This document shows positions 210 through 30,636 of a DNA stretch of 34,407 nt, piece by piece. The stretch's first letter is position 1; the number at the start of each line of letters is the position of its first letter. A program made the translations under genes and the position numbers. The notes beneath the pieces are model-generated. The model did no database searches. It saw only the letters and a list, made by a program, of their open reading frames with translations, and was not told the DNA's origin. Location of the stretch: IMG/VR virus record IMGVR_UViG_3300022853_000051, positions 1 to 34,407 of that record. One strand, given 5' to 3'. The stretch comes from a virus.

Positions 210-632
210 TCATTTCTTCGGTTTCAGATGTGGGATATAGTGCTCTAGGCATATTTTATCCGCCTTATTCTTTATGCGATTCAACTGCGTGCTGGTGCTG
301 AATGATAGCTTGTTTCTTTCTTTAATTTTTTCATCTAATATCTTGAGAGTGTAAATCAAAGTCCCTCGCTTTATTTCGAACAAAGGCTTTTGATTATGAA
401 ACCCTACAAGAACATTTCCAATCAAGTCCTCTATCCTCCAAGACAGTGAGGACGTTCCTTTCTCCATTTTATCGATAGCATCCTGCATTGCTTTAATTTT
501 ATCTGTAGCTCTCTCTTCTCTATCAACTTTATGAGCAAGAGATTCTAGTATTTGTGCCTCGTCGTCTTTTCCGTCGTTTCTTAGGCTTTGAGCTTGAGAT
601 TTTAAGTTTCTAGACTGTTTTCTTTTACTCAT
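210..632 (-). CDS. Hypothetical small basic helical protein, last gene of the repair operon
   Basis: A protein of 140 aa that I do not recognise. The first 60 residues are Lys/Arg/Glu/Gln-rich and look helical (MSKRKQSRNLKSQAQSL, then a charged repeat-like stretch), followed by a more mixed C-terminal half. It has no signal peptide, membrane segment or catalytic motif. Its ATG overlaps the TGA of the SbcD-SbcC fusion in an ATGA junction at 629-632, so it is probably translated by coupling. It may assist the nuclease complex, but that is only guilt by association. Confidence 0.75.
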   Translation of the reverse strand: MSKRKQSRNLKSQAQSLRNDGKDDEAQILESLAHKVDREERATDKIKAMQDAIDKMEKGTSSLSWRIEDLIGNVLVGFHNQKPLFEIKRGTLIYTLKILDEKIKERNKLSFSTSTQLNRIKNKADKICLEHYIPHLKPKK

Positions 633-3600
633 GATATTGTGTGTTGATTTGTGGAGGATATTGCCGTTGACGTGGTAAAACTGAAATTGCTTACTCCTGC
701 GTTTTCTGGGAGAGCAGAAAACTCCTTATTAATAAATCCTCTGTCTTTTGTTACCTCAACTATGTTATCTACACAGTCTTTTACTTCATTTCTATGTGTA
801 ATAATTAGAACATTCTTATACTTCGTCCCTAAGTACAAGAGCATGCTCTGAACCTCTGAGATTAAGTCATCATCAAGGCTTCCAAATCCTTCATCAATCA
901 TTATAATTGATGGCTGAGAAACGGCATGATTTGAAATCTCGTGCAAAGCGTTTTTTATAGCCAGAGACACAATGAATTTTTGAGATGATGACGCCATAGC
1001 TCCAAGAGGTAGTGCATCAAATTTATCTTCCATAAAATAGAAGACTTCTGTCACGTCTCCTTTGTCATCAATCTCTAAATCAACTTTAAACTCAACAATC
1101 CCTGATAGGATGTTCTGTATTTTCTCATTGATAGTAGGAAGCTTTGTCTTAATAACCATCGCTGGTATTCCTTGCCTGTGCACAGCTTGAAGGTACAGAC
1201 TGTGACGACGATATAAAGTGTCAAATTCGCGTATCTCCTTCAACCTTTCCTCTTTGCCTTCCACGTCTCGACTTAAAACCGCAAGTTCACCCGCTAATAT
1301 TCGTAATTTCAAAACGATAGATGTGATGCTTTGCTTGTATCCCTCAAGCAATTCTTGATTATCATCTATCGTTTTTTGAGTTTCTGTGTTAGATTCAATG
1401 TTACGCTCATTTTTGTCAAAGTTATCGCACATCACTTTTAGCTCCACAAGCTCTTTGCGCGTCTTCTCAATAGCATCAGAGAGCTTTGATAGCTCATTTG
1501 AGCGGGAATTAATTAACTCGTTCATCGCAACGATGTCTTTGGCTCCTAATAGTTTTTCTCGGTCTTTAGAGATGTTCTCTAAGAGCATTTCCTTTGCGGC
1601 AAGTTTAACTTTTGTTATTTCTAACTCAGAGTTTCTAGTTTCAAAATTCTGGTTATGATTCTTGCAAACCTCTACTTCTTTAAGTACATTCTTTTTCTCT
1701 GTGAGTTCCCGCTCAAGCCTAGTTTTTCGGATATTCTGTTCTGTTTCACCAAAAGGGTTCGGTTTTTCAGATACATTTCCGCAAGTCGGACACTTCTTGC
1801 CTTGGAAAGAGATGATTTTGTTTTGACACTCGATAATATCAGACTGAATCTTTCTAATCGATTCCTCTGTAGTCGTGGTGTCTTCGATGAATTTTTTTGA
1901 GTTCTGTAATATCCAAGTTTCAGACTGCTGCTTAATGGATTCAATATTAGTCTTTTGGGCTCTTTCTTGCTGCAGTTGATGCTCGACATCTGATAGGTTT
2001 TTCTCACCTTCGAATGGGACATCTTTTCGAAGATTGCTGTCCAGCCAAGATTTAAGTTCGGACTGGCGCTCAATATCTTTATTAAGTAGGTCCTCTGATA
2101 GTTCGATTTCATTCTCTAATACGTCTTTGGAGTCAAACTCCATTATCTCCACTCTATGAAGCTTGCGGGTGTGCTCTAAAATTTTGCTGTTTATGTCAGT
2201 TTGTTTTGTTTCGCTTAGAAATTGCTCTTCCTCAAGGCTCTTGATTTGAATATTAAAATCTTGCTTTTGAATATTTTTCTGAGCTATTTCTTCTTTAATC
2301 TCAGGAACTTGCCCAGCATCTTTAAAGTCTCGATTGAGATTGTTTTGTTTTTTATTAACAAAGTCGTATCTCATCTTAAAGTTAGACAAGTCAAGGTATC
2401 TAGCAATTAGAGCATTTTTAGGTTGCTGGCTCAAAGCCAGGTAGTCACTGTCATTGTTTGAAGCGTGAAGAGCGATTATTGAAAAATCTTCATAATCTCC
2501 AATTGCTTTTTTTATCTGTCCTTTAATGTTTGTGTTCTCAGCAACTCCTTCATCTGTTTCTTCGTCTGTCCACATCCAATCTTGCTCTCCAGTTGGAATT
2601 TGGACTTCTTTCCAAATCTCGAACCGAGTTGGGTAAGAATTCCCGCCGTTCCGCTTTTGAACGACCTCGCGAGTAATTCTAAACTTCACCCCTTCAATTG
2701 AAACGACTACACTCACATATCCTTTGTTGGATTTTGTGTAAATATTTACGAGCTTGGACTTATTTTTGGTCCCAATAATAACTTCAAACAGACCGAAAAC
2801 TAAAGCACGAAGAGTGTTTGATTTTCCGCAGTAGTTCTCGCCGAAAATCCCAGTCAACCCTGGCATGCTTTCTATTGGAAAATAAACAGCTCTATCGGGA
2901 AACGAAAATAAGTTTCGAACTTCCATCGATAGAATATCGAATTTTTTTGATTTGATTTTTTCTTTGTCAAGTCCAAGTTCTTTTTCAATTGAGTATGCAA
3001 ATGTAAACAACTCTTGTAGCTCATCGTCTTCCATGTCATGCTCAGTGCGTTTCATGAATTTTTTAAATCTGCCTTCAAAACTATCTCCACCTTCTAATAC
3101 TTCACTATCATCGCCCAGGTCTTCTTTTTGCAAAGTCTTCCATTCCACGCGAATACTCTCACACTTATATCGGTCCTTTATAAGCTTGGTTATTTGATTG
3201 GTACGTTCTTGTGATTTGTTTTCCTCAAAATCTTCGACAGTTACAATTACTTTTGTTTTTCTCTTGTTATTGGAAAAACTCATGTTCTCTATTCGGTCCT
3301 CAACTGACTCTCCACGGGTTACTGTGATTTTTGCAAATCCCCAGTCATTTAAAACTATCTTTCTTTCGTGGGTTTTAGTTTTAGTATCCCAAATCAGATA
3401 TCCTTTGTCTATTGATTCTCCATAGCCCTGTTGGATGCAACTTCCACTATAAGCCATTCTGCCATCAAAGAAATCTTGGTACTCGTGAAAGTCACCCATC
3501 ATGGTGATGTCAAAATCTTTGAATATCGATTTTTTCCAGCTGGCCTGGTTTGAATTTTCATGACCATTATCCATGCGAGCACCATAAAGAGCTCCGTGCC

Positions 3601-4105
3601 ACATAGCGATATATGTTTTATCAGCTTCTTTCTGGTCTAACTCCAGCACTTTTTCGTCTCGACAAGAGAAAATGCCATATGTATGATTTTCGTCGATACT
3701 GAAAAATCCAGATAAAGGATAGTAGTAAACGCTGTTTTCCCAAAGATTTATTGAGGATGCATTTTCTTTTGTGACTTGGTAAGTGGATTTTCCTCCCAAA
3801 ATCTCTGAAAGCTCGAAAATTGGGCTAATAACATCGCCTTGGCTCTCTTGTTTCATGTTCATATCATGATTTCCAGCTATAATATCTACTGGTGCAATCT
3901 CAGAAAGTTTTAAGAAAAACTCTGACATCAATATGAACGACTTAGGAGACATGGAGACCTTATTGTGTAATACGTCCCCAGTTATAGCAATACGGTCTAC
4001 TTTGTTTGATTTTAGGTCCTCATATAATCTTTCAAAAACCTGACGATATTCAGCGTGTCGAGTTGAAAATCGAATGTGAATATCTGATAAGTGTGCGATT
4101 CGCAT
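629..4105 (-). CDS. SbcD-SbcC (T4 gp47-gp46 / Mre11-Rad50) single-chain fusion nuclease-ATPase
   Basis: A protein of 1158 aa joining both halves of the Mre11-Rad50 type complex. Residues 1-250 form the metallophosphoesterase: D8 and H10 (LSDIH), G43-D44 (TGDV), GNHD 78-81, H170 (MWHG) and GDFHEY 204-209. From about 390 a Rad50/SbcC ATPase begins, with Walker A GENYCGKS at 422-429. Two coiled-coil arms flank a zinc hook CPTC at 772-775. A weak signature ASSSQKF lies near 1038-1044, Walker B with D1071-E1072, a D-loop SLDDD at 1076-1080 and the switch His at 1104. In T4 the two halves are separate proteins that process DNA ends for recombination-dependent replication. The arms, about 170 aa each, are short for SbcC. 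No stop or frameshift separates the halves. Confidence 0.93.
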   Translation of the reverse strand: MRIAHLSDIHIRFSTRHAEYRQVFERLYEDLKSNKVDRIAITGDVLHNKVSMSPKSFILMSEFFLKLSEIAPVDIIAGNHDMNMKQESQGDVISPIFELSEILGGKSTYQVTKENASSINLWENSVYYYPLSGFFSIDENHTYGIFSCRDEKVLELDQKEADKTYIAMWHGALYGARMDNGHENSNQASWKKSIFKDFDITMMGDFHEYQDFFDGRMAYSGSCIQQGYGESIDKGYLIWDTKTKTHERKIVLNDWGFAKITVTRGESVEDRIENMSFSNNKRKTKVIVTVEDFEENKSQERTNQITKLIKDRYKCESIRVEWKTLQKEDLGDDSEVLEGGDSFEGRFKKFMKRTEHDMEDDELQELFTFAYSIEKELGLDKEKIKSKKFDILSMEVRNLFSFPDRAVYFPIESMPGLTGIFGENYCGKSNTLRALVFGLFEVIIGTKNKSKLVNIYTKSNKGYVSVVVSIEGVKFRITREVVQKRNGGNSYPTRFEIWKEVQIPTGEQDWMWTDEETDEGVAENTNIKGQIKKAIGDYEDFSIIALHASNNDSDYLALSQQPKNALIARYLDLSNFKMRYDFVNKKQNNLNRDFKDAGQVPEIKEEIAQKNIQKQDFNIQIKSLEEEQFLSETKQTDINSKILEHTRKLHRVEIMEFDSKDVLENEIELSEDLLNKDIERQSELKSWLDSNLRKDVPFEGEKNLSDVEHQLQQERAQKTNIESIKQQSETWILQNSKKFIEDTTTTEESIRKIQSDIIECQNKIISFQGKKCPTCGNVSEKPNPFGETEQNIRKTRLERELTEKKNVLKEVEVCKNHNQNFETRNSELEITKVKLAAKEMLLENISKDREKLLGAKDIVAMNELINSRSNELSKLSDAIEKTRKELVELKVMCDNFDKNERNIESNTETQKTIDDNQELLEGYKQSITSIVLKLRILAGELAVLSRDVEGKEERLKEIREFDTLYRRHSLYLQAVHRQGIPAMVIKTKLPTINEKIQNILSGIVEFKVDLEIDDKGDVTEVFYFMEDKFDALPLGAMASSSQKFIVSLAIKNALHEISNHAVSQPSIIMIDEGFGSLDDDLISEVQSMLLYLGTKYKNVLIITHRNEVKDCVDNIVEVTKDRGFINKEFSALPENAGVSNFSFTTSTAISSTNQHTIS

Positions 4106-4870: not shown

Positions 4871-5415
4871 TATTCGCTTTTAAGTGCTGCTTGTTTCTCC
4901 AAGGTAATCATGTGACACAGAGCGATGGTGTAGCTGTCGCACATATCGAAATTTTCATCCATAAGCTTCCTTGACTTCGGACCGTATTTCCAATTCAAAA
5001 GAGGCTGCAATTTACATACTTCCTCCCACACTTGAGATTTGCTTTCAGAGCCTTTTTTTCCAAATTTCACATGCGGGTATGCAGTTTTTCGTGCAGAGTT
5101 TACGTTGTAGTATACTGGCTCTATTCCCCAGGTTTTATAGCATACAGCCGAAATCATTCCGTTAAAGAAATTAAGCAATCCGATTGTTGTAGCAGAAGAG
5201 AATTTTCCAGCGAACTTTTTAAGCGGTTCCTCTATAGCAATATATGTCAGTTCCATTTTACTTATTTCACTTAAATGCTCCTCGAAGTGTTTTAGCTTTT
5301 CAAAAAGAGTTTGTTTTGGACGCATTTTAACGTACCCAATCTTGAGCATGTCTCCATCTTCTGAAAAAAGTGTGTACCCAATACAGGTGGTTGATATATC
5401 TAATCCTAAAATCAT
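4870..5415 (-). CDS. RuvC-like Holliday-junction resolvase (RNase H fold)
   Basis: A protein of 181 aa. It opens with the RNase H-fold strand LGLDISTTCIGYTLF (catalytic D6), has IAIEEPL with E62/E63 as the second acid, and DMCDSYTIAL with D157/D160 as the C-terminal acids. Spacing and length fit RuvC (about 170 aa). In a phage it would resolve recombination or branched replication intermediates, which suits its operon with the SbcD-SbcC fusion. It overlaps the preceding small gene by ATGA (5412-5415) and the following phosphoesterase by one base. Assignment is by motif order; overall identity to cellular RuvC appears low. Confidence 0.8.
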   Translation of the reverse strand: MILGLDISTTCIGYTLFSEDGDMLKIGYVKMRPKQTLFEKLKHFEEHLSEISKMELTYIAIEEPLKKFAGKFSSATTIGLLNFFNGMISAVCYKTWGIEPVYYNVNSARKTAYPHVKFGKKGSESKSQVWEEVCKLQPLLNWKYGPKSRKLMDENFDMCDSYTIALCHMITLEKQAALKSE

Positions 5416-5610: not shown

Positions 5611-5643
5611 AAAAAAAGCCTTGACGAATATCAAGGCTTTTTT
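5611..5643. terminator. Bidirectional intrinsic terminator
   Basis: AAAAAAAGCCTTGA and TCAAGGCTTTTTTA form a near-perfect stem around CGAATA, with A-runs on one side and T-runs on the other, so it can act on either strand. It sits just after the stop of the 370-aa structural gene (5661) and before the repair operon, ending minus-strand late transcription. Confidence 0.92.
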
Positions 5644-20017: not shown

Positions 20018-23000
20018 TTATTCTATGTTAAATCTAAAGCCTCCGAGACCATTTCTTCCTGTGTTTAGTTCTCCGACCTCTATTCCAGGCGCAAATTGTT
20101 TTGCTTTTAAAGAGAAAGGGTTTATATCAGGCTCTTCTTCAGTCTCTAAATCGAGCACTTCTTCAAAAATGTCTGATAAAAAATCTCCCAGGGTTTCAAT
20201 AAGGTTTGCATTTTCTCCCTCATTGTATCCGTCAAAGTTTACTAAATTATCCAATTGAACGTTGAGTCCTGGAGTTTTGGAAACCAAGGTTAGCTTGTTG
20301 TTGGTGACACTTCCTGAAAAAGGTCCTTCTGGTACTTCATTGCCATTCCCCTCGTCGAGTCTTAGTCTCAGTATCGCATTTGGCTCCAATGGACCATTTT
20401 CATCCGACACTGGGATGGGGAAACCATTCCACCAAGTATTTGCAGCCCTTTTTGTAGCAGAACTCGAAGGTCCACCAACAGTAAGTGTGTATGCCCCATC
20501 GCCATTGCCTAGAGTTATGTCAAATGAACGTGTACCGTTAAAGTTGTTTCCAATATCAGACATGTCTTCAATCTGAACTTCCCATATAGCTCTTGTGTTT
20601 TGAGTAGATATGATTTCACTGGTGCATGGTATAGGGACTATGGGGGCGGCTCTAAATTCTCCCATAAACTCTATTTCATCGTTTTCATTCAGAAAAAACC
20701 CTTGCTGTGTTAAGTTTTCTTCGTTGAGAGGCAAAAGGCTTGACGATAAAAGGAGAACCCCGTTTATGATAACACTTCCATATTCCATAATTTGATTTTG
20801 GTCAGGACTGAATGTGGCCTCATAATACGATACCCCTTTTAGGTCATTAGCGTTTAATCTAAAATTACACTGCTCAAGAGTTGAGTCATATGGGTATAAA
20901 ATGTCTCGATACCCCGTAACAAGGTATCTATCAACTACCGCCCCCTCCGTAGCTTGTATAGGAGCAGAAGGTATATAGGTTTCTTTGTAGCCTAATTTGT
21001 TGATTGTGAATTTGTATCTAGATTCCTGATTTTGGTTAGAATTGGCATAGAGAGATACCCTCATTGGCATTTGAGGGTTCAATTGGAAAGTGTTCAAATA
21101 ATTAACTAATGTGATTGGGTTCTTAGAAAACACAACTAGCCTCACTCCAGGGCTAGTTGATGTTAACGTTATTTTTCTTGCATCATCATCGAATACTGCT
21201 TTAAATGGTTTAGGGGTGCCATATAACCTATACCAGTCACTTGGTCCATCATCTAGTCGAGACTTCATGTTTTCGTATATGTATTGAAAACTTCCGAGGG
21301 AAGTGGCAGCTATATCTGTTCCATTTATATTGATGTTCCCAACAGCGCTGATTGGCAAGTCATCTAATGAATTAATTAACACATCTTCATAAATAATTTC
21401 AACCTTGTGAAGGAGATTGTCTGAGTACGGGGTTTTTATTCTAAATGTCCTTGACTCCTGAGCCTCTATTGTAGAAGATGCGTCAGTACCTAGGAGTTCA
21501 TTTGGAGGAATAATTGTTCGAATGCCTTCATTTGTAATCGTGAGGTCAAAGAAGTCATTTGTATAGAACTCTTCATTTCGGCCTTGCCAAAAGTTTCCAT
21601 TCCTCAAAATTGAGGGGCCAGGCGCTGTTCTATCGAAGTCTTCATCAGCTGTTATGTCATAAGAAGTTCTTCCAGTAAACCTTGCTCTGTTTTCCCAGAT
21701 ATTTCCAAAATTGTATCTTACTTCTTTTTGAACAGTATTGTCGAGAAGTGTAAGCCCGTGATAAGGAAATACTCCTTTTTCTACTCGGACCGCATTTTCT
21801 CCATCAATTTTAAAAAACTCATCTAACTCAATTTCAAAGTCGGTATTTGCTTGAAATGTAAACAACTTATTTTGTTCAATTGTGGTCCACTCCAAATCTA
21901 AGGGGAGGCTCACTTGATTGCCTTCATGAAATATAGATATATCAGGAGCTGTACCAACAAAATACCTTGAACTGTTTGTGTTGTCTGGGATATCAAAAAA
22001 CTGAGCACTTAGGACTATTGCTGTAAAATCAAATTCTTCATTATCTCCAAAAAACCCTAGTGTGGATACTGCTTCAATAGTATATGCCCCTTGATAGTCT
22101 CCATCTAGTATTCGAAGGTTTTGTCCAACAGTAAAATATTGAAGGTTATCAGGGAGAATAGGAATTAAAACAAATGCATTACCATTTAGAGCTGCTAGTG
22201 ACTGGTCTTCTTGTTCAGGCGGAATATTAACCTCAAAAACCCTCTGTGGGTTATCTGCACCCAAACCAGACAAAACCCCTTGTGAATACCCTGCAAAGGG
22301 TGTATTGGGGCTCCATGTTAAAGTTAATCTTTCATTTCCGAAAGGGCTAAGTTTATCCAGAGACAAAGTGTGGTTCACAGACTGTCCTTCTGACAAGGTG
22401 GTTTCAGGGGCATCCCATGTGTATTTAGCAACTTTTTCCTCTATAATATCATAATCCAGTCTTATCCAGTGTTTGTTGAAGAAGAATGGAAAGTTGTTTT
22501 CTATTAACACTGAACTATCAAGATTGATGTCTAGCGTTTCGGTTCCGTATGGTGCAAAATTCCCTTCAGTATCATAGTGGACTAGCTTTTGACTCCAGCG
22601 CTGTTGCTTGTAGCTAAAATTGTCTGAATCTACTTGAAAGTAGACATCATCAGAAAAGAAGCTATCAACCTCTAAAATATATTTTCCTCTCTTTTTTCCG
22701 AACACATTTTCTTTTCCATATGAAACAAGAGTTGTCTCAACAGAGTCTATTTCGTTCAAATACAAAGGGTCCGTAAACACTCTTATAGTTAAATTATTAC
22801 AATCAATTATTGTACTAGATATTTCTCCGTAAATTCGAAAATTTCGAGACGCATTTCTTTCTTTTACAAATTGCTCGGCTAAGTCAAAGTTGTTGTCATA
22901 TCGGCTTTGATTCATGTTTTTATAAGATTGAACCAAATCAATCTCTAAAAACAAATCAACATCCTCAGACGATGCGTTTTTTAAAGCCGTCAGTAATATT

Positions 23001-23020
23001 TTATGTTTCTTTTTATTCAT
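20018..23020 (-). CDS. Large virion protein, 1000 aa, probable baseplate/tail component
   Basis: The N-terminus is short and basic (MNKKKHKILLTALKNASSED) and leads into a long Asn/Asp/Thr/Phe-rich, beta-type body. A Calx-beta-like fragment may lie at about 215-255 (SEGQSVNHTLSLDKLSPFG). The end contains an acidic amphipathic stretch (DFLSDIFEEVLDLETEEE). No signal peptide or enzyme motif is present. It begins 2 nt after the stop of the 1040-aa gene, so the two are coupled and similar in size. The order after gp6 (two proteins of about 1000 aa) recalls T4, where gp7 (about 1000 aa) follows gp6, but I see no sequence match to gp7. Confidence 0.78.
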   Translation of the reverse strand: MNKKKHKILLTALKNASSEDVDLFLEIDLVQSYKNMNQSRYDNNFDLAEQFVKERNASRNFRIYGEISSTIIDCNNLTIRVFTDPLYLNEIDSVETTLVSYGKENVFGKKRGKYILEVDSFFSDDVYFQVDSDNFSYKQQRWSQKLVHYDTEGNFAPYGTETLDINLDSSVLIENNFPFFFNKHWIRLDYDIIEEKVAKYTWDAPETTLSEGQSVNHTLSLDKLSPFGNERLTLTWSPNTPFAGYSQGVLSGLGADNPQRVFEVNIPPEQEDQSLAALNGNAFVLIPILPDNLQYFTVGQNLRILDGDYQGAYTIEAVSTLGFFGDNEEFDFTAIVLSAQFFDIPDNTNSSRYFVGTAPDISIFHEGNQVSLPLDLEWTTIEQNKLFTFQANTDFEIELDEFFKIDGENAVRVEKGVFPYHGLTLLDNTVQKEVRYNFGNIWENRARFTGRTSYDITADEDFDRTAPGPSILRNGNFWQGRNEEFYTNDFFDLTITNEGIRTIIPPNELLGTDASSTIEAQESRTFRIKTPYSDNLLHKVEIIYEDVLINSLDDLPISAVGNININGTDIAATSLGSFQYIYENMKSRLDDGPSDWYRLYGTPKPFKAVFDDDARKITLTSTSPGVRLVVFSKNPITLVNYLNTFQLNPQMPMRVSLYANSNQNQESRYKFTINKLGYKETYIPSAPIQATEGAVVDRYLVTGYRDILYPYDSTLEQCNFRLNANDLKGVSYYEATFSPDQNQIMEYGSVIINGVLLLSSSLLPLNEENLTQQGFFLNENDEIEFMGEFRAAPIVPIPCTSEIISTQNTRAIWEVQIEDMSDIGNNFNGTRSFDITLGNGDGAYTLTVGGPSSSATKRAANTWWNGFPIPVSDENGPLEPNAILRLRLDEGNGNEVPEGPFSGSVTNNKLTLVSKTPGLNVQLDNLVNFDGYNEGENANLIETLGDFLSDIFEEVLDLETEEEPDINPFSLKAKQFAPGIEVGELNTGRNGLGGFRFNIE

Positions 23021-23022
23021 TA

Positions 23023-26000
23023 TTAAAAGATGTCATCAAGTAAGTTAGATAGTCCACTAATCACTCCGCCTAAATCCCCGTCAAGAGCTAGATTAAACAC
23101 GCTTTGAACTGTATCGCTATCAATAATTTGATAACCGCTGTCCTCTATACAGGTTAGCTCATAAGGAGATTGAGAGCTCCAGTATGAAGCCGCGTGCCTT
23201 TTGCTGTTTGCGCCATCCCAAAAAGAGCCTCGATATCTTATGTCAGCAGTGTTTTGATAATAACGAGGGCCTCCGTTGCATTTTTGGTTTCCAGTCAAGC
23301 TTGACCTTGTTTTTACGTTCTTAGAGATAGAGTGTAAATGAACCTTGTTATGAATGCCGCCTGGAGGCGTGGACGCAAGCTCTCTAGTGATAATGTAATA
23401 TGTGTTTGTTTTTCTCAAATTCTGAGAACCAGTAGTTGTTAAGTTTTTATAGAATTTAACATTCCTAAACTCAAATTTGTAAACGCATTTTGTGTAATAT
23501 CTCTCTGTATAATCATAGTCAGCATTGCTTTCTGCTTGACAAGTGAGATGAGACCAGTCATTTGCCACTTCAAACAAGCTAAGTTCTATTCCTTGTCCAG
23601 CCGCTAAAGAATACGCATTTCCATTCCCAAATTTTATCTTAGCAGTTTTTATACCTAAGTTCTGAACATACAGCTTGGCGTCATTCACGGTTGACTGGTT
23701 TACTTCGCTATGCTCAGCATACCTCCATTCGTCTTGGTTTCCGTCGTCCTCAGTTTGTTTAAACTGAGGCTTTCTGTTTCCTGCTGTGTGTGACCCTTGA
23801 ACTCTTGTTGGTCCAAAGTAAAATGTAATGGAAGATTCGTTTTCTTTTAATTTAAGAGGATTGAGATTCTCATTTGGGTTCGAATTAACAATTCTGTAAA
23901 GGTCTAAATAGCCTGTCTTGATGAACGAATTTGAGTTTGAGCCTAAGTTTAAGTGTGTTTTTTGCCCCGTGTTAGACGCGATTACAGTCATCGAGTTAAA
24001 ATGAGGAGATTTGCTTATGGTTCCGCCAACACTCCCTTCTTCTGGAGTCGTAATAGAGTTCGCATTACTTGCATTTAAGTCTTTGTCAAATGTAGCTTCT
24101 GATATTCCCCACCAAGAATATATTGCAGTTCTTGCCCAACCTTCTGGTTTCAGAAAGTATCCGTAACCACACTCGGTTCTTTGATACTTTTCTCCATTTA
24201 ATACGCTTGATACGCCAGGCTGTGCTGGAAATGTTGGAATGTTTGGTTTGTATCCATTTGCATATTCTTCACTTCTATTCCCTCTGTTTTCATATCGATA
24301 TAAAGTATTTTTTGACACAAATCTTGAAAAATCAGTTCGGAACCAGTCTCCATTAGTTCTATCAGACTCCACGCCATAACCACCAGTGCCTCCACCAAAG
24401 CCGTCATCTTGAAATTCTTCCACAAATGGATGTCCAATTCTGTCTCCATCTGTATACAAAGGGTGTTCTAGTACATATGAACCATCTTCTCCCGCGTTGT
24501 CATAAAAGTCTGGATTAGACTGAGATGGGAGCCTTGGTATTCCATATGGCTCAGGGTAATTATGACTCCACGCCTTTTCATAGGGAAACACCCCATTTGA
24601 TGCGCCTTCCGCAGCCGCAGAAATGGGCACTTCATCAAAGTTTTCATATGGAAAGTTTAAGTGAAAATGGTCTCTTCTTGAAAAGGTATTATCTTCAGTT
24701 AGGACTGTTTTTTGACCAGTAGCTCGGTATATAGCTTGCGGGCTATCATAAAACAGCTTCATTTGATATGCTGCCAACCATACTCCACGGTTCCCAGTTG
24801 GGACTCCTTCTCTGTCAGTCTTTAAGCCTTGTGGGTCATAGCAATTGGCAGGGAGCTTAAATGCTTGCCAGCCATCTCTTCTTATTTCAATGCGACTTTT
24901 GAGCTGTTTAAACTCATTTTTCCACATAAACTGCTGATTTTCTTCTCGGCTTCTAATGTCAGGAACTTCTACAACTTCAACATTTCGAATAGGATACCCC
25001 TCAGTAGCCATATCTCTAATCTGAACCTGAACAGGTGTTGGAACGCCCTGTGATTGTAATTGCTCAATTGTTTCCTCGTCTATCGCCACAGGGGGAACGA
25101 AGAACGTGCTCCATTTTCTGAGGTCAAGGTTTGAGTTTATGTTTACTTCTGTATATCCAGTCTGAAAATCGCCCCATGTTGGGACAACGTCAATTGGGAA
25201 CTGCCGAAAAAAGAAAGAAGGAACAGTGTCAAAATTTGGTTGATTGTCTGCTGGGAATGGGAAAAAATTTAAAGATATTTCATCCTTAGTCAGCCCTTGC
25301 TTAAACATGTCAACTTCAAACACCATCGTTTGTGTCCCAGTAGGGACGTTGTGAATAACAAATTCTCCCTCGTCATTCGTGTAGGTCATGAATTTATAAT
25401 GAGAGGGCACTTGAGTGAAGTTGCTACCATCTTGTAAAAACTGCTCAGTATCTGCAGAGAAGCTCTCGGTATTAAAGTAGTCACTTTGTTTGCTAGCCTC
25501 TTTTAAGTTAAAACTAATTCGACTTCCATTATCATCTACATCAGTTGCGTCTGAAAACACGTCTGAGGGGGCAAACACGCCAATAGGGACATTTCTAAGC
25601 GGAATCTTGATATTGTTACCATTTTCATCTTTCACCTTCTGCATAGCCATTATACGGCCAAACACAACTCCTGTGTCAGACTCTTGTGTGGGGAAAGAGT
25701 TTCTGAGATTGTTATATATTGATAGAGTGTCTAAAGTTTTTTGAGTTCTCTCTAAACCTATTGTTATAAATAAATCATCCACAAGTTGTTCTCGGAAAAA
25801 AATGTAACTCTGAGAGTTTCCTGAAAACAGTTCGTTCATGTCAAGAGCAAAATTTCTTCTTGCTCTTGACTTTTGTGAAGAGGATAATGTGTAATCTAGA
25901 GTATTGGTGTAAACTGAGCCCGTAATTGTGCCAATTCCAGCAGATGCAGGATTAACCCCAGAGTTGTTCACTCCTTTGTTAATCCATTGTTGATTACCAT

Positions 26001-26145
26001 CAAAAGTGGTAATTTCATAAGGGAGATTTAGGTTGTCAAAAGTCATGTACGCAGGACTCTTTCCTTCTCCTGGTTGAAGGAAGGTATCGAAGTATACTAT
26101 TGTTGTACCTGTTTTAGATTCTTTATAAAGGATTTCCTCGCGCAT
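23023..26145 (-). CDS. Large virion protein with carboxypeptidase-regulatory-like domain, 1040 aa
   Basis: Residues about 157-282 fit the carboxypeptidase-regulatory-like (CarboxypepD_reg) beta-sandwich: GVVFGRIMAMQ, an insertion, then NDEGEFVIHNVPTGTQTMVF. The remainder is Asn/Tyr/Gly-rich and unrecognised; the C-terminus (DGDLGGVISGLSNLLDDIF) is acidic. It occupies the place of T4 gp7 (after gp6, similar length), so a baseplate wedge role is possible by position. The start codon at 26145-26143 lies inside a perfect 14-bp inverted repeat, and the sequence next to that start carries the TATTTAT motif, so translation is probably structure-regulated. An HNH endonuclease gene separates it from gp6. 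Confidence 0.8.
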   Translation of the reverse strand: MREEILYKESKTGTTIVYFDTFLQPGEGKSPAYMTFDNLNLPYEITTFDGNQQWINKGVNNSGVNPASAGIGTITGSVYTNTLDYTLSSSQKSRARRNFALDMNELFSGNSQSYIFFREQLVDDLFITIGLERTQKTLDTLSIYNNLRNSFPTQESDTGVVFGRIMAMQKVKDENGNNIKIPLRNVPIGVFAPSDVFSDATDVDDNGSRISFNLKEASKQSDYFNTESFSADTEQFLQDGSNFTQVPSHYKFMTYTNDEGEFVIHNVPTGTQTMVFEVDMFKQGLTKDEISLNFFPFPADNQPNFDTVPSFFFRQFPIDVVPTWGDFQTGYTEVNINSNLDLRKWSTFFVPPVAIDEETIEQLQSQGVPTPVQVQIRDMATEGYPIRNVEVVEVPDIRSREENQQFMWKNEFKQLKSRIEIRRDGWQAFKLPANCYDPQGLKTDREGVPTGNRGVWLAAYQMKLFYDSPQAIYRATGQKTVLTEDNTFSRRDHFHLNFPYENFDEVPISAAAEGASNGVFPYEKAWSHNYPEPYGIPRLPSQSNPDFYDNAGEDGSYVLEHPLYTDGDRIGHPFVEEFQDDGFGGGTGGYGVESDRTNGDWFRTDFSRFVSKNTLYRYENRGNRSEEYANGYKPNIPTFPAQPGVSSVLNGEKYQRTECGYGYFLKPEGWARTAIYSWWGISEATFDKDLNASNANSITTPEEGSVGGTISKSPHFNSMTVIASNTGQKTHLNLGSNSNSFIKTGYLDLYRIVNSNPNENLNPLKLKENESSITFYFGPTRVQGSHTAGNRKPQFKQTEDDGNQDEWRYAEHSEVNQSTVNDAKLYVQNLGIKTAKIKFGNGNAYSLAAGQGIELSLFEVANDWSHLTCQAESNADYDYTERYYTKCVYKFEFRNVKFYKNLTTTGSQNLRKTNTYYIITRELASTPPGGIHNKVHLHSISKNVKTRSSLTGNQKCNGGPRYYQNTADIRYRGSFWDGANSKRHAASYWSSQSPYELTCIEDSGYQIIDSDTVQSVFNLALDGDLGGVISGLSNLLDDIF

Positions 26146-26179
26146 CTACTTGCTTTTCAATAAATATGCGCGAGGAAAT
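26132..26179 (-). promoter_or_regulatory. Start-codon-sequestering RNA hairpin
   Basis: ATTTCCTCGCGCAT (26132-26145) and ATGCGCGAGGAAAT (26166-26179) are perfect 14-bp inverted repeats around a 20-nt loop. In the minus-strand RNA the 3' arm starts exactly with the ATG of the 1040-aa gene, and the loop holds AAAAGCAAGTAG, the likely ribosome-binding region. With no T-run after it, it is not an intrinsic terminator. Transcripts entering from upstream would fold it and hide the ATG. Confidence 0.75.
26160..26166 (-). promoter_or_regulatory. TATTTAT motif inside the hairpin loop
   Basis: TATTTAT on the minus strand overlaps the last base of the 5' hairpin arm and continues into the loop, 14 nt before the ATG at 26145. 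RNA starting downstream of it would lack the 5' arm. Confidence 0.5.
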
Positions 26180-26211
26180 TTATAATCTAAATGCTGATGT
26201 AGATAGATTCG

Positions 26212-27114
26212 TTAACTAGCTATGGATTGTAACTCTTTTAGTGAGATTGAACATTTATCATTTTTCATCATGTTTTCTTCCCAAGGAATCATTTCTAAAT
26301 TGGCTATGTTTCCGATTATTTCTGGATTTACATCGTTTCTAAATCCCTCAGCGATAGAATATTTATGGTCAAGATGGTACGCGCCGTCTTCTCCTGCTTT
26401 GCCTCTTTTGTCGAAGTTTGATAGTGATTGGAGGTCTTGCTTATTTGTGATGCTTCTGACTTTTTGATGGTATTTTTTAAACTTTGGACGTATAGATTGA
26501 AATTCTTTATACGTATAACCAGTTCTAGCGAGGTAAATGTGGTCATGTAACCCACTCTCTTTGTTTTTTGTTTTTGTTTCTCTGAATTTGTCTAAACTTT
26601 CCTCTGAAAACAGCCCTCCTCCATTATATGTGTTTTTCAATTCAGTTCTAATAATTCCCTCTTTTTCTAACCAGCCTCTGACGCACCCATATGAAACACC
26701 TAAATCAGATGCTACTTCTTTTAGAGACATGCCATCTGTGTATTTTGAAATGATATCAGACTTTAAGTCGGTTCTGCCTTTTTCGTAATCTGAGCTGCTC
26801 CTGAGTTTTATTTTTTCTTGCTTCAAAATTTTGGTCACACTCGTTCTTGAACATCCAATTTTATCTGCGATTTGATAAGATGACATTCCATCGTTATAGT
26901 GTTTAATGATTTTTGAGACAGGAAAAGAGTTTGGTCGTTTTTTGCCCGACATAGCTTTTGAAATGCTTCGAACTTCAAATCCTCGTCGTTTGATAACTTT
27001 CGTCACAAGGGTCGCGCTGTAACCAACCAACTTAGAAACTTCTAATGAAGACTTCTTTTGTTGAACATATAATTCTATTATCTGATTTTCCTCTTCGTGT
27101 GTTAATTTTCTCAT
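26212..27114 (-). CDS. HNH homing endonuclease with three helix-turn-helix repeats
   Basis: A protein of 300 aa from the ATG at 27114; a GTG at 27120 would add two residues. Three similar helix-turn-helix units occupy about 3-50, 63-106 and 116-158 (for example DGMSSYQIADKIGCSRTSV and DGMSLKEVASDLGVSYGCV), suited to recognising a long site. The C-terminus carries an HNH-type nuclease pattern: HLDHKYS near 247-253, IANLE near 270-274 and a final N-x-x-K within EENMMKNDK. Free-standing enzymes of this kind are common between T4-like phage genes and spread by cutting alleles that lack them. It sits between gp6 and the 1040-aa gene and probably targets this junction. Confidence 0.87.
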   Translation of the reverse strand: MRKLTHEEENQIIELYVQQKKSSLEVSKLVGYSATLVTKVIKRRGFEVRSISKAMSGKKRPNSFPVSKIIKHYNDGMSSYQIADKIGCSRTSVTKILKQEKIKLRSSSDYEKGRTDLKSDIISKYTDGMSLKEVASDLGVSYGCVRGWLEKEGIIRTELKNTYNGGGLFSEESLDKFRETKTKNKESGLHDHIYLARTGYTYKEFQSIRPKFKKYHQKVRSITNKQDLQSLSNFDKRGKAGEDGAYHLDHKYSIAEGFRNDVNPEIIGNIANLEMIPWEENMMKNDKCSISLKELQSIAS

Positions 27115-27178
27115 TTCCACTTTGTTTGTAGAATGATAATCAACACATGTTCGAATCTAAAGGTCCTGACAAAGAAAA

Positions 27179-29044
27179 TTAAGAGGCAACACGGATTTTT
27201 ACGTCCATATTTGGATTCCTGAGCTCAAACATAGCTAAAGAGCTTCCAAAAATGGCGTTGTCCTGTGGGTTCATAGCTACTCTGTATCCTCCAGTTCCAA
27301 TGATGTTTTCAATTGCCCCTGTGGATTGAGCATGTAGCGTCTCTGAGTACCCACCTCCTTGCATGTTGAAGAAATCAATGTCTACAACGTTTACTACGCC
27401 TGGAAGCTCTCTCAACATATCGGTAAGCTGCGATATGTAAATGTTTTGCCCCATTTGCCAATTGTCTACATCAAAGAATTTTTCGACTTCATCAATAGCG
27501 GCTGCTTTAATCTCCCTTGTGTTGAAGTTGTTGTTATCAATGTACAAATCAATGTTCAGTGAAATATTTATAACTTTTGCATCGTTTATTTCTACAAAGT
27601 CATTTACCATTCTATATTTGGAAAGATAGGTCACGATGTTGCTTTTTATTCTACTGGTGGAATTCGCAACAAGCTTCCCTTTTCCATTGATGGAAAGAAT
27701 GTACATTTTAACTTTGTTATCTGAAACTTTAGAATGCAATCTGAATGGAACTCCAAACTTTCCATCCATCTGGTATGCTCTAGATGTGTAATCACCTATG
27801 GTTACACATCTTTCTTGTGCAGCATGGTTAGCTGAGATGTTATATTTTATCTCTTCAGTAGACGGCAGGCCTTTACCTCCAATCCCAGGAATAGGGTTGT
27901 TTGACTTGGTAGATGCAACTACTTCCGCGTTCGTAGCTTCACTTACCCCGTTTATTACTGATTCTATATTTGCGACAGAAGTAAGAGTTGAGGCTCCTAC
28001 GTTTGAAAGCTGCCCTCCTCCTACTCGATATTGAACATAAACAGTTGCGCTCTGAGGAATTTTATTTCCAAGAGCAGTGTTGTCTAAAATGTCTGAGACA
28101 TTTAAGTTTGAATTATCCTGACATACGTCTTCTCCAGAAAGAGCGTTAATGTAAGTAGTGTATGCAGCATAGTCTTCATCTCCTCCGCCAAAAGTAATTC
28201 GGCAACTTCCATCCGCTAGAAATTCTTTTTCAAATCGTTTAGGGACATCTTTCCAATAGCCTATTTGAATTCCATTTACCTGAGAGAAATTATCGTTCTC
28301 CATGAATATTTGAGAGGTTGGCAAAAAGTCTACCTCATAGTATTTCATTGTGTCGTCGTTCCACTCTGAGTAAGTAGGTATCTTGTTGACACCTGCCGAT
28401 GTGTATACGATAATTGAAATTATTTCCAGCACATTTTTTTCAGGAAGTTCAATCTGGTAAAAAGGAACGCCCCCATCGGTTGTAACATCTTGCCTAAATG
28501 TCTTTGTTACTCCAGCGCGAATCTCTTCTCTTTTGACAATTCTATATTTTAGGAGGTCTTGGTTTGCGTTGAGAACTGGTTGAATAGTTCTGTTTGCTAT
28601 TCCATTATCAGAAAAATCACTTGAAAAATCAATGTCATTGAGGGTTTCAAATATTTGACCAGCCCCTTTTACCTGCATACCCCTTCTGTATAACGGTAGA
28701 TAAGTTATGCTTGGCCCAGTAGAGGTAGCGGGAACATCTATTATAACGTCAATCAGCGACACAGCTGGGCGAACGCCAGGCACTTTATACCCTTTTGTTT
28801 TAGCAAGGCGATAAACGGAGACTCTTTCTTGAACTCCATCCAAAAATAATTCATTAAACTTTTTGTCAGCAACATAGCTAAGCAAGTCGCCAACATAAGC
28901 ATTTAGCTCAAGCATGGCCATTCCAGGTGACGCGACATTAAAATCTTGCCATTGGTCAGGAAAGTATGCTTTTAAATACTTTATTAGGTCCTGTTTTATT
29001 GTTTGAAAATCTCTGCTGAGATAGTTTACTTGAATTTGTCTCAT
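27179..29044 (-). CDS. Baseplate wedge subunit, T4 gp6-like (baseplate J family)
   Basis: A protein of 621 aa, close to the length of T4 gp6 (about 660). The N-terminal 95 residues carry the family pattern: NYLSRDFQTIKQDLIKYLK, FNVASPGMAMLELNAYVGD, a KFNELFLDG block, then RLAKTKGYKVPG. The C-terminal half has the usual region of strands and helices ending in INISQLTDMLREL-like sequence (IYISQLTDMLRELPGVVNV). gp6 forms the ring of the contractile baseplate that links wedges together. The ATG overlaps the gp25-like stop (ATGA at 29041-29044), the gp25-gp6 pairing expected of a baseplate locus. Confidence 0.9.
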   Translation of the reverse strand: MRQIQVNYLSRDFQTIKQDLIKYLKAYFPDQWQDFNVASPGMAMLELNAYVGDLLSYVADKKFNELFLDGVQERVSVYRLAKTKGYKVPGVRPAVSLIDVIIDVPATSTGPSITYLPLYRRGMQVKGAGQIFETLNDIDFSSDFSDNGIANRTIQPVLNANQDLLKYRIVKREEIRAGVTKTFRQDVTTDGGVPFYQIELPEKNVLEIISIIVYTSAGVNKIPTYSEWNDDTMKYYEVDFLPTSQIFMENDNFSQVNGIQIGYWKDVPKRFEKEFLADGSCRITFGGGDEDYAAYTTYINALSGEDVCQDNSNLNVSDILDNTALGNKIPQSATVYVQYRVGGGQLSNVGASTLTSVANIESVINGVSEATNAEVVASTKSNNPIPGIGGKGLPSTEEIKYNISANHAAQERCVTIGDYTSRAYQMDGKFGVPFRLHSKVSDNKVKMYILSINGKGKLVANSTSRIKSNIVTYLSKYRMVNDFVEINDAKVINISLNIDLYIDNNNFNTREIKAAAIDEVEKFFDVDNWQMGQNIYISQLTDMLRELPGVVNVVDIDFFNMQGGGYSETLHAQSTGAIENIIGTGGYRVAMNPQDNAIFGSSLAMFELRNPNMDVKIRVAS

Positions 29045-29427
29045 TGTCCGTCATCAAAATTTACTGTAATTGATACATCGTCTTTTAAACCCCCTAATTC
29101 TGGGATTTTATAAATAACATCCACAGTCAATGTATAGCTCTCTTCATTAAAACTGTAGTTGATAGTACTTATGCTTATGTTTGGAATAAATTCGATAATT
29201 TTATCAGTAAGTTCCTTGTTTAATTCCGATTGAGCCCTTGAGTCCCACGGCTCGAATATATAATCATACAGAGGTGAGTACAAGCGGTTGTTCATTACGC
29301 GCTGACCTCTCTTGGTGGTCAACAGCGAAATTAAATTCGTGCGTATAGCATCTGCATCTGTTTTTGTAGTAGAAAACATGCCCCCTTGGCTGGTTTGTTG
29401 GAAAGGAAATCGAACTCCGATATACAT
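29041..29427 (-). CDS. Baseplate wedge protein, T4 gp25-like (GPW/gp25 family)
   Basis: A protein of 128 aa; T4 gp25 has 132. It has the family signature at the N-terminus: GVRFPFQ, GGMFSTTKTDADAIRTNL, LLTTKRGQRVMN, then a YDYIFEPWD block. This family carries the EPR-like or EPxD core motif that binds the baseplate hub and is conserved in all contractile injection systems; here the core reads FEPWD. It is coupled to gp6 by overlap. A TATTTAT motif lies 17 nt before its ATG. Confidence 0.92.
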   Translation of the reverse strand: MYIGVRFPFQQTSQGGMFSTTKTDADAIRTNLISLLTTKRGQRVMNNRLYSPLYDYIFEPWDSRAQSELNKELTDKIIEFIPNISISTINYSFNEESYTLTVDVIYKIPELGGLKDDVSITVNFDDGQ

Positions 29428-29444
29428 CTGTAATACAGTTTCTC

Positions 29445-29451
29445 ATAAATA
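29445..29451 (-). promoter_or_regulatory. TATTTAT motif before the gp25-like gene
   Basis: TATTTAT on the minus strand, 17 nt before the ATG at 29427. It is in the 73-nt divergent gap that also holds an oppositely oriented copy at 29477-29483. Confidence 0.5.
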
Positions 29452-29476
29452 GAGGCGGGAAAAAAAGACCGCTATC

Positions 29477-29483
29477 TATTTAT
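29477..29483 (+). promoter_or_regulatory. TATTTAT motif facing the Vsr-like homing endonuclease
   Basis: TATTTAT on the plus strand, 17 nt before an ATG at 29501 and 34 nt before the endonuclease ATG at 29518. It probably belonged originally to the structural gene now starting at 30633. Confidence 0.45.
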
Positions 29484-29500
29484 TTAAAAAGCACACGTAG

Positions 29501-29521
29501 ATGTCAATTTTCAAGATATGA
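29501..29521 (+). other. Six-codon mini-ORF MSIFKI overlapping the endonuclease start
   Basis: ATG TCA ATT TTC AAG ATA TGA lies at the usual distance from the TATTTAT motif. Its TGA overlaps the ATG at 29518. The peptide MSIFKI resembles the start MSTYKIYP of the structural protein at 30633, so it may be a remnant of that gene's original start and may now drive coupled translation of the endonuclease. Confidence 0.4.
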
Positions 29522-30636
29522 GGCGATTAACAACAATAGAGTTTATACAAAAATCTACAATGATGAATAATTGTAGATATTCTTACAGTAATGTCATTTA
29601 TAAAAATGCTAGAACAAATGTTGTAATAACTTGCATTAAACATGGTAATTTTTCTCAAAACCCCAGCGTTCATCTACATCAAAAAAGTGGGTGTCCTAAA
29701 TGCAAATCTTATGCCAATGGCGTTTTAAAAAAATCAAACACTCACGATTTCACTGAAAAATCCATAATTGTACATGGGGCTACATATGATTATTCTTTAG
29801 TTGAGTATGAAAATAATCAAAAAAAGGTAAAAATTATATGTAGTTCACACGGAGAGTTTAGCCAAACCCCAGCCAATCATTTATTTGGCAGCGGATGTAA
29901 ACAGTGCGCCGATTGCAAATCGTCCAAAGCTCTAGTTTTGGGTCTTAAATCTTTTTCAGATAAAGCAAAAATGACTCATGGAGATAAATATAACTACTCC
30001 AGCGTTAACTACATTAATACAGCTACAAAAGTAAAAATTATATGCAGTTCACACGGAGAATTTAGTCAAACTCCAAATTCTCACCTTCAAGGAAATGGTT
30101 GCCCTCGGTGCTCAGGAAAAGCTAAGTACAACAAAAAAAAATTTCTTTTAAGAGCTATGGAAGTACATGGAAATCGTTATAAGTATACTGCCATAGGAAA
30201 AAATATTACCAATCGCACAAAAATTAATATCGACTGCTTAAAGCATGGAATTTTTGAGCAGTCGATTGATGCTCACATAAATAAAAAACAAGGATGCCCT
30301 GTATGTAATACATCGAAAGGAGAGCTATTAATACAAGAATATCTAACCCTTAGAAAAATAAAGTTTTTTCCTCAAAAAACTTTTAATGATTGCATTAACC
30401 CAAAAACTGGAAAAAAACTTTATTTTGACTTCTATGTTGACGAGTTAAATACATGCATAGAATACGATGGCGAACAACATGAGAAATCTATTGCACATTG
30501 GGGAGGGGAAAGAGGTTTTACTAAAAGGAAAGAACTTGATTCTATTAAAAATGATTACTGTGTAAAAAATGACATATCCTTGATTAGAATCAGGTTTGAC
30601 GAAAAAATAAACTTAAAGCTTAACAACTTGCTATGA
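29518..30636 (+). CDS. Vsr/EDxHD-like homing endonuclease with four zinc-finger-like repeats
   Basis: A protein of 372 aa. Four repeats of about 45-68 residues (about 18-62, 88-130, 155-198, 218-263) share the pattern [IV]xCxxHGxFxQxxxxHxxxxGCPxC, a likely zinc-binding DNA-contact array. After them a C-terminal nuclease domain has FDFYVDE near 303-309, IEYDGEQHE near 314-322, KNDYC near 344-348 and LIRIRF near 355-360. This resembles the Vsr-like EDxHD homing endonucleases typified by I-Bth0305I. It lies between gp25 and a structural gene in an inserted position, and its stop overlaps the next ATG (ATGA). An orphan repair-type endonuclease is less likely in this context. Confidence 0.83.
   Translation: MRRLTTIEFIQKSTMMNNCRYSYSNVIYKNARTNVVITCIKHGNFSQNPSVHLHQKSGCPKCKSYANGVLKKSNTHDFTEKSIIVHGATYDYSLVEYENNQKKVKIICSSHGEFSQTPANHLFGSGCKQCADCKSSKALVLGLKSFSDKAKMTHGDKYNYSSVNYINTATKVKIICSSHGEFSQTPNSHLQGNGCPRCSGKAKYNKKKFLLRAMEVHGNRYKYTAIGKNITNRTKINIDCLKHGIFEQSIDAHINKKQGCPVCNTSKGELLIQEYLTLRKIKFFPQKTFNDCINPKTGKKLYFDFYVDELNTCIEYDGEQHEKSIAHWGGERGFTKRKELDSIKNDYCVKNDISLIRIRFDEKINLKLNNLL
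29827..30066 (+). repeat. Near-identical DNA repeats inside the endonuclease gene
   Basis: The stretches from 29827 and from 30031 (each about 35 nt, 204 nt apart) differ at only a few, mainly synonymous, bases and encode VKIICSSHGEFSQTP twice. The other two repeats are more diverged, so repeats 2 and 3 probably arose by recent duplication or gene conversion. Confidence 0.75.

Follow-up and report, generated by a model that had tools for sequence, protein, structure and literature searches.

In bacteriophage T4, the long RNA of gene e (lysozyme) folds over the translation start and the RNAs from its promoters lack the 5′ strand of the structure (as described in passages of PMC3014915), which is the arrangement proposed here. 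A hairpin combined with a promoter whose RNA escapes it has also been described, near homing endonucleases, for T4 I-TevI, I-TevII, I-TevIII and segB and for Aeh1 mobE, and structure at the translation start for the T4 baseplate genes 25 and 26 (both in sections of PMC2988022). As genes 25 and 26 are listed there as repressed by such structures, the view of an earlier sequence-only reading of the present locus, that this logic would be new on a structural gene, was too strong. Structure improves the initiation of T4 gene 25 (in a part of PMC3014915), and in Bacteroidota, in which Shine-Dalgarno signals are absent, start-region structure tunes initiation (according to a portion of PMC6847099).

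The present locus deviates from these systems. Gene e has TATAAATA promoters and its long RNA is early, whereas here the motif is TATTTAT, there is no Shine-Dalgarno signal, and the long RNA likely originates from a unit led by the same motif. In the I-Tev, segB and mobE cases the endonuclease is silenced, whereas here the gene concerned lies downstream of an endonuclease and the hairpin persists without it. The gene order is shared with the T4 gene 6–gene 7 junction; however, the T4 genes overlap by four bases, leaving no room for a separate promoter, whereas the window (the whole 34,407-nt stretch of viral DNA analysed) has a putative one between them. Owing to its promoter motif, which is not of the T4 late type, the hairpin is not filed in the T4 gene e/I-TevI set.

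The element in front of the 1040-aa gene is interpreted, with a probability of about 0.6, as an RNA hairpin that would hide the start codon, carry the gene's own putative promoter in its loop and insulate the gene from read-through. The RNA of the upstream gp25–gp6 unit, with or without the endonuclease gene, would carry both arms, fold and bury the AUG, and the 1040-aa gene would not be translated from this folded read-through RNA. RNA from the TATTTAT promoter would begin downstream of the 5′ arm, be open at the AUG and be translated. The gene would be insulated from upstream read-through, with its own promoter setting its level. Where transcription starts, that translation is blocked and what the device is for are points that we infer. 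The coordinates are collected in Table 1.

Table 1. Features of the start-codon hairpin and its surroundings (window coordinates).
Feature	Position	Strand	Basis or remark
5′ arm, perfect 14-nt core ATTTCCTCGCGCAT	26166..26179	-	inverted-repeat search and folding
5′ arm, outer extension TTTAGATTATAA; pairs with 26113–26131, two bulges	26180..26191	-	folding and alignment
3′ arm, carrying the ATG and opening codons (MREEI) of the 1040-aa gene	26132..26145	-	similar residues in three relatives
3′ arm, outer extension, within the coding sequence	26113..26131	-	folding and alignment
Hairpin loop, 20 nt	26146..26165	-	
TATTTAT promoter-like motif, 14 nt before the ATG of the 1040-aa gene	26160..26166	-	
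Putative transcription start region, ~6–10 nt past the motif	26150..26154	-	analogy with T4 late promoters
1040-aa gene in the position of T4 gene 7 (assigned to the baseplate wedge by synteny only)	23023..26145	-	
Free-standing HNH homing endonuclease-like gene, listed with a GTG start	26212..27120	-	absent from L002 and L004
gp6-like baseplate wedge gene	27179..29044	-	phrog_219, 1.2e-22
gp25-like baseplate wedge gene, first of the upstream unit	29041..29427	-	phrog_43 and PF04965
TATTTAT in front of the gp25-like gene (17 nt from its ATG), from which read-through RNA probably originates	29445..29451	-	

The perfect 14-bp inverted repeat (ATTTCCTCGCGCAT / ATGCGCGAGGAAAT) is located exactly where the sequence-only reading had placed it, with arms that are 100% complementary and 20 nt apart. 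The ATG of the 1040-aa ORF constitutes the first triplet of the 3′ arm, and TATTTAT lies inside the loop with one base common to the motif and the 5′ arm, in agreement with that reading. The stem is longer than first described, as 26191–26166 aligns with 26145–26113 at 26/26 bases, interrupted by gaps of 4 and 3 nt (score 17.5). One perfect repeat of at least 14 bp with a loop of 3–40 nt was observed against 0.017 expected per shuffled window (962 shuffles), and a chance origin of the 14-bp repeat is excluded. A scan of a 109-kb near-identical contig in 2179 steps gave its top score (16.5 on the step grid) at the start-codon hairpin, the runner-up elsewhere scoring 14.0, and the folding z-scores at the hairpin were -6.7 on the plus strand and -6.3 and -4.1 on the minus strand. 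The longest perfect repeat of the window is another one, of 15 bp, almost all A/T, with 42 nt between its arms (30355–30426); it sits within an endonuclease-like gene (29518–30636). An Rfam search of 25000–30000 gave a single match, of sub-gathering score, away from the hairpin.

Both transcript forms were folded, the short RNA starting 2–12 nt after TATTTAT and the long RNA including the 5′ arm. Since the arm precedes the putative start region, RNA begun just past the motif would lose it, as had been claimed. The claim that read-through RNA would hide the start also held in the predictions, with the AUG unpaired at 0.03 in read-through RNA versus 0.38–0.45 in RNA begun past the motif. The predicted cost of opening the start was 26.0 kcal/mol for the long RNA and 5.1 for the short one, and the difference of 21.0 ranked first among 93 motif-led genes of 10 contigs. 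The accessibility measure of the start region was 0.005 for the 1040-aa gene. Against shuffled upstream sequence, the AUG pairing probability of the window was unexceptional (0.279, with 28% of the shuffles as high), because the start is GC-rich and easily paired, so that this measure saturates. An incoming ribosome should not open the perfect core: the endonuclease frame closes at 26212, ahead of the hairpin, and the two remaining frames close at 26189 and 26182, ahead of the core. As a class, motif-led genes were without such hairpins (39 genes, median percentile 0.56), start hiding under 0.05 being found in 4/39 of them vs 3/83 sampled controls, and a start hairpin as a general rule for TATTTAT genes is ruled out by this 39-gene test. 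A motif-led 119-aa gene of L017 (4585–4944; G001:44585–44944) has a start region unusually hidden by upstream RNA and is possibly a second instance in the same phage.

Read inverted, the upstream arm (26191–26166) reproduces the opening 33 nt of the 1040-aa gene with two small gaps and zero mismatch. The 5′ arm thus probably originated in one inverted copying event, and for this reason the main rival to the insulating hairpin is a neutral scar: a template switch would recently have copied the beginning of the gene inverted upstream, the copy would have become fixed in a single species, and any effect on expression would be incidental. The 26/26 matches with only two small gaps point to one copying event rather than to stepwise evolution of pairs. 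The 3′ arm encodes residues that are similar in relatives, so that the newcomer is probably the 5′ arm, whose outer end also adjoins the boundary of the endonuclease allele at 26192. The complete hairpin is present in the window and in three near-identical contigs, L001, L002 and L004 (at least 99.6% identity where aligned); L010 ends within the hairpin loop. These copies argue against an assembly error, and being so nearly identical, they say nothing about selection on the hairpin. L002 and L004 keep the hairpin without the endonuclease gene, which rules out that it is a part of the endonuclease. In L002 (around 4904–4953) and L004, a 47-nt piece replaces the gene and encodes ISLKKLKSTIS, compared with ISLKELQSIAS at the endonuclease C-terminus (15/2000 shuffles as good). 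The site therefore looks like a deletion remnant, and its description as a virgin empty site is doubtful.

Evidence on the other side comes from more distant gp6/gp7 relatives, which were found by viral-contig searches with protein alignments and by single-protein searches. A tree was built of 26 distinct gp7-position genes including that of the window, with junction states assigned by hand; repeat contigs or junctions were left out, among them L001, L004, L049, L052, L053, L071 and L097, as were L046, L051, L055, L056, L085, L089 and L094. The 26 genes comprised 11 with no promoter motif (8 of them starting at most 49 nt from gp6), 5 with a promoter-like motif only, 7 with the motif and a terminator-like stem, and 3 with a start-codon hairpin, namely, the window, L042 and L048. 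The stem of L042 and L048 (TGTATCAT/ATGATACA) occupies the window's register, its 3′ arm likewise covers the start codon, and four of the seven inner pairs differ from those of the window on both sides. A start hairpin of the window's geometry with pairs changed on both sides, the kind of check proposed earlier, was thus found in a related lineage, but the close relatives L068, L069 and L070 showed interrupted upstream-start pairing only, with opening-cost differences of -0.1, 2.8 and 0.5 kcal/mol, respectively. The window and L042/L048 lineages are separate on the gene tree, so that the start hairpin needs at least two changes, and as the stems differ between the lineages, a separate gain in each is more probable than one gain followed by a loss. 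Because a related branch has a similar arrangement in different letters, the element is probably a real, if T4-like, control device.

This shared geometry with another stem argues against the neutral scar, as does the sequence identity within the pair: the gp7-position proteins of L042 and L048 are 67% identical (first 700 aa), yet they have in common, without any change, a 33-nt block upstream and the 8-nt start arm. Part of this upstream identity could be due to the promoter alone. A copying event can equally give rise to a functional element. The neutral scar is considered rather unlikely, but it is a live alternative and the best of those to the insulating hairpin.

Pairing was also compared in a fixed register, taking the better of two offsets. 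It amounted to 14/14 pairs in the window and 12/14 in L042 and L048, against a mean of 7.0 in 85 other motif-led genes, only one of which reached 12. The eight motif-bearing gp7-position genes had 14, 12, 12, 10, 10, 10, 10 and 10 pairs of 14 (p 1.1e-5, ignoring kinship). In composition controls for the window, L042 and L048, 0/85 foreign arms and 0/85 foreign starts paired as well. The controls were marginal for L068–L070 (permutation p 0.02–0.03; 15–17/85 foreign arms as good) and not significant for L040 and L009 (p 0.10 and 0.43). The longest helix anchored at the ATG, among 12 genes examined, was 14 bp in the window, 8 in L042 and L048, 7 in L037, L039, L041 and L009, and 3–6 in the other five; in L037 and L039, the 7-bp helix adjoins the near motif, a variant, making them a possible, weak third case of a start hairpin. 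In opening-cost difference, the gp7-position genes of L048, L042 and L040 ranked 2, 5 and 7 (L040 through another fold), and the eight motif-bearing gp7-position genes exceeded the rest (p 0.022; 0.008 as five lineages). The choice to set gp7-position genes against the rest was made once the data had been seen, and relatedness is handled only through the five-lineage test. In some relatives without TATTTAT at the junction, the AUG was likewise partly paired to upstream RNA (L034 0.57, L092 0.65, L093 0.51).

The description of TATTTAT as recurrent was borne out by 19 occurrences in the window vs 9.85 expected, a count reached by 0/100 shuffles. The statistics of the motif were obtained on the contigs G001 (a near copy of the window), G005, G007 and G008 with simple ATG-based gene calls, and in each of the four it was the top enriched 7-mer 11–27 nt before start codons. 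It was found 10–20 nt before the ATG of 39/152 unit-leading genes vs 0/135 followers (Fisher 1.6e-12), a follower being a gene within 20 nt of the preceding gene and contig-end genes being left out of the test, and in six further contigs before 47/200 leaders vs 1/146 followers. The motif is flanked by a T-rich stretch ~7–13 nt upstream and by A's downstream. Its reverse complement ATAAATA, which resembles the T4 late promoter, was not enriched (2/292 genes at the promoter position). TATTTATA and the T4 late promoter TATAAATA are reverse complements of each other, but the orientation of TATTTATA to the genes is opposite throughout the group. Shine-Dalgarno-like sites before starts showed no excess over a control stretch in G001 (3 vs 6 of 136) or in the other three contigs (1 vs 1 of 51, 0 vs 2 of 35 and 1 vs 2 of 70). 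Its placement before starts and at the head of operons makes TATTTAT a directional, phage-promoter-like motif with short leaders; by analogy with T4 late promoters, transcription would begin about one helical turn from it (the distance in the part of PMC2988020 that treats it). A literature search did not find TATTTAT described as a promoter or late promoter of a phage or bacteriophage. CGTATAT (in G001 and Flavobacterium phage immuto) and 7-mers of TATATTTAG (in immuto) were also enriched before genes and may represent a second promoter class.

The gp25 and gp6 homologues are adjacent in the T4 baseplate order, and the description of the 1040-aa gene as a virion gene stands with regard to its position beside them; the 1040-aa protein itself has no PHROG or Pfam match, although its position and length fit a gp7 homologue. 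Its PDB matches, a short stretch against propeller proteins, nearly all of them designed "Pizza" ones, were dismissed. A second HNH homing endonuclease-like gene (29518–30636; phrog_559, 1.4e-77) adjoins the baseplate unit, and between it and the divergent gp25-like gene, two CTATTTAT on opposite strands (29445–29483) form an inverted repeat that is a putative back-to-back promoter pair. Elsewhere in the window, a large gene (629–4105) matches SbcC-like palindrome-specific endonuclease subunits (phrog_77), and an intergenic perfect 13-bp repeat AAAAAAGCCTTGA/TCAAGGCTTTTTT (5612–5643) is probably a two-way terminator.

This neighbourhood bears on the purpose proposed by the sequence-only reading, an early-off, late-on switch of the strict T4 type, in which early or middle read-through RNA would be kept silent and translation confined to late RNA begun in the loop. 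The anatomy is that of T4 gene e and I-TevI (as given in parts of PMC3014915 and PMC2988022), and TATTTAT precedes gp25 here as well as the terminase large subunit and Gp20-like genes of immuto. But the gp25–gp6 unit, the sole nearby same-strand unit reading into the gene, itself begins at TATTTAT, and the gene beyond points the opposite way; the silenced read-through therefore most likely comes from the same promoter class, and an early-off purpose is not indicated. The profile of the gp55-type late sigma factor (phrog_234) matched 0/10 contigs, all of them possibly partial, and 2/14 controls, and the best phmmer match with T4 gp55 was unconvincing (E 0.048). As these 10 possibly partial contigs yielded no T4-type late sigma factor, "late" is a class that we infer for TATTTAT, and the timing switch is regarded as improbable.

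Several relatives have a terminator-like stem at the same junction, and in these, termination may perhaps block the upstream read-through that a start hairpin would block in two branches. Among 16 promoter-motif junctions, it was found upstream of the gene in L009, L011, L012, L036, L037, L038 and L041, weakly in L037 and L041, and not in the window's species, L042, L048, L040 and L068–L070; the stems of L039 and L097 were not counted as they end 168 nt upstream, before the gp6 stop. In the L011 group, the ATG is preceded at ~40 nt by TATTTAT and, as the near motif, by the variant TATATTTA, and TATATTTA-like sequences precede gp7. In L011 and L038, CTATTTAT is situated within the loop of the stem and is followed by a second promoter-like sequence closer to the ATG. 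In the L011-clade stem, covariation (two-sided changes at 2 pairs) was no more than in shuffles, and the stem is therefore only moderately supported. All three start hairpins occur at junctions without a terminator. The notion of start hairpin or terminator, never both, was dropped, as L037 has a weak terminator-like stem together with the 7-bp helix on its AUG (unpaired 0.03), and so few cases do not make a rule.

The hairpin of the window is not itself a terminator, since the minus strand has no U-run after the stem; a simple terminator scan of the minus strand at 22500–29700 likewise found none. Both observations weigh against an RNA-processing or 3′-end element, with an RNase III-like cut or protection of the 3′ end of the gp25–gp6–endonuclease RNA and start hiding as a secondary effect. 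A stem of ~26 pairs does stand between two transcription units, but in L042/L048, too, the 3′ arm lies over the start codon, and such an element is very unlikely. Least credible is a DNA-level operator, with a protein on the two arms and RNA folding irrelevant: the arms are symmetric about the promoter and the operator bound by T4 I-TevI overlaps its late promoter (in a section of PMC2988022), but the arm recurs elsewhere in the near-identical contigs only with 2–3 mismatches, and the L042/L048 arms carry the two-sided differences noted above.

The lack of Shine-Dalgarno signals and the presence of TATTTAT before immuto genes suggest a Bacteroidota host. In immuto, TATTTAT was found at -20 to -3 before 8 genes vs 0.73 expected; it was outside the top eight 7-mers listed for three stretches and absent before the gp6 gene. 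The gp6 of immuto is 26% identical and that of a Microcystis phage slightly closer (28.7%), and L097, whose gp6–gp7 junction is almost identical to that of the viral contig L039, belongs to a MAG with the label Deltaproteobacteria; the Bacteroidota host is therefore only a lead.

If the insulating-hairpin interpretation is true, the T4 logic of a promoter that escapes a hairpin would also operate in distant T4-like phages, which are represented here by metagenome contigs only. It would be used without Shine-Dalgarno signals, on a gene in a baseplate position and with its own promoter motif, and would have arisen at least twice at the same gene. The output of the 1040-aa gene would, as is suggested, be deliberately uncoupled from that of its neighbours. 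For predicting transcription units in these genomes, a concrete motif would become available: a T-rich stretch, then TATTTAT, then an A-rich leader. More tentatively, the start of the gp7-position gene may be a recurring insulation point in this group of distant T4-like phages, whose branches would independently have put a promoter inside or beside an RNA structure that blocks read-through, either a hairpin or a terminator-like stem. In the loop-promoter forms, one compact element would then both stop incoming expression and start fresh expression, and promoter-in-loop insulation would be a general design, beyond a timing trick of a few T4 genes.
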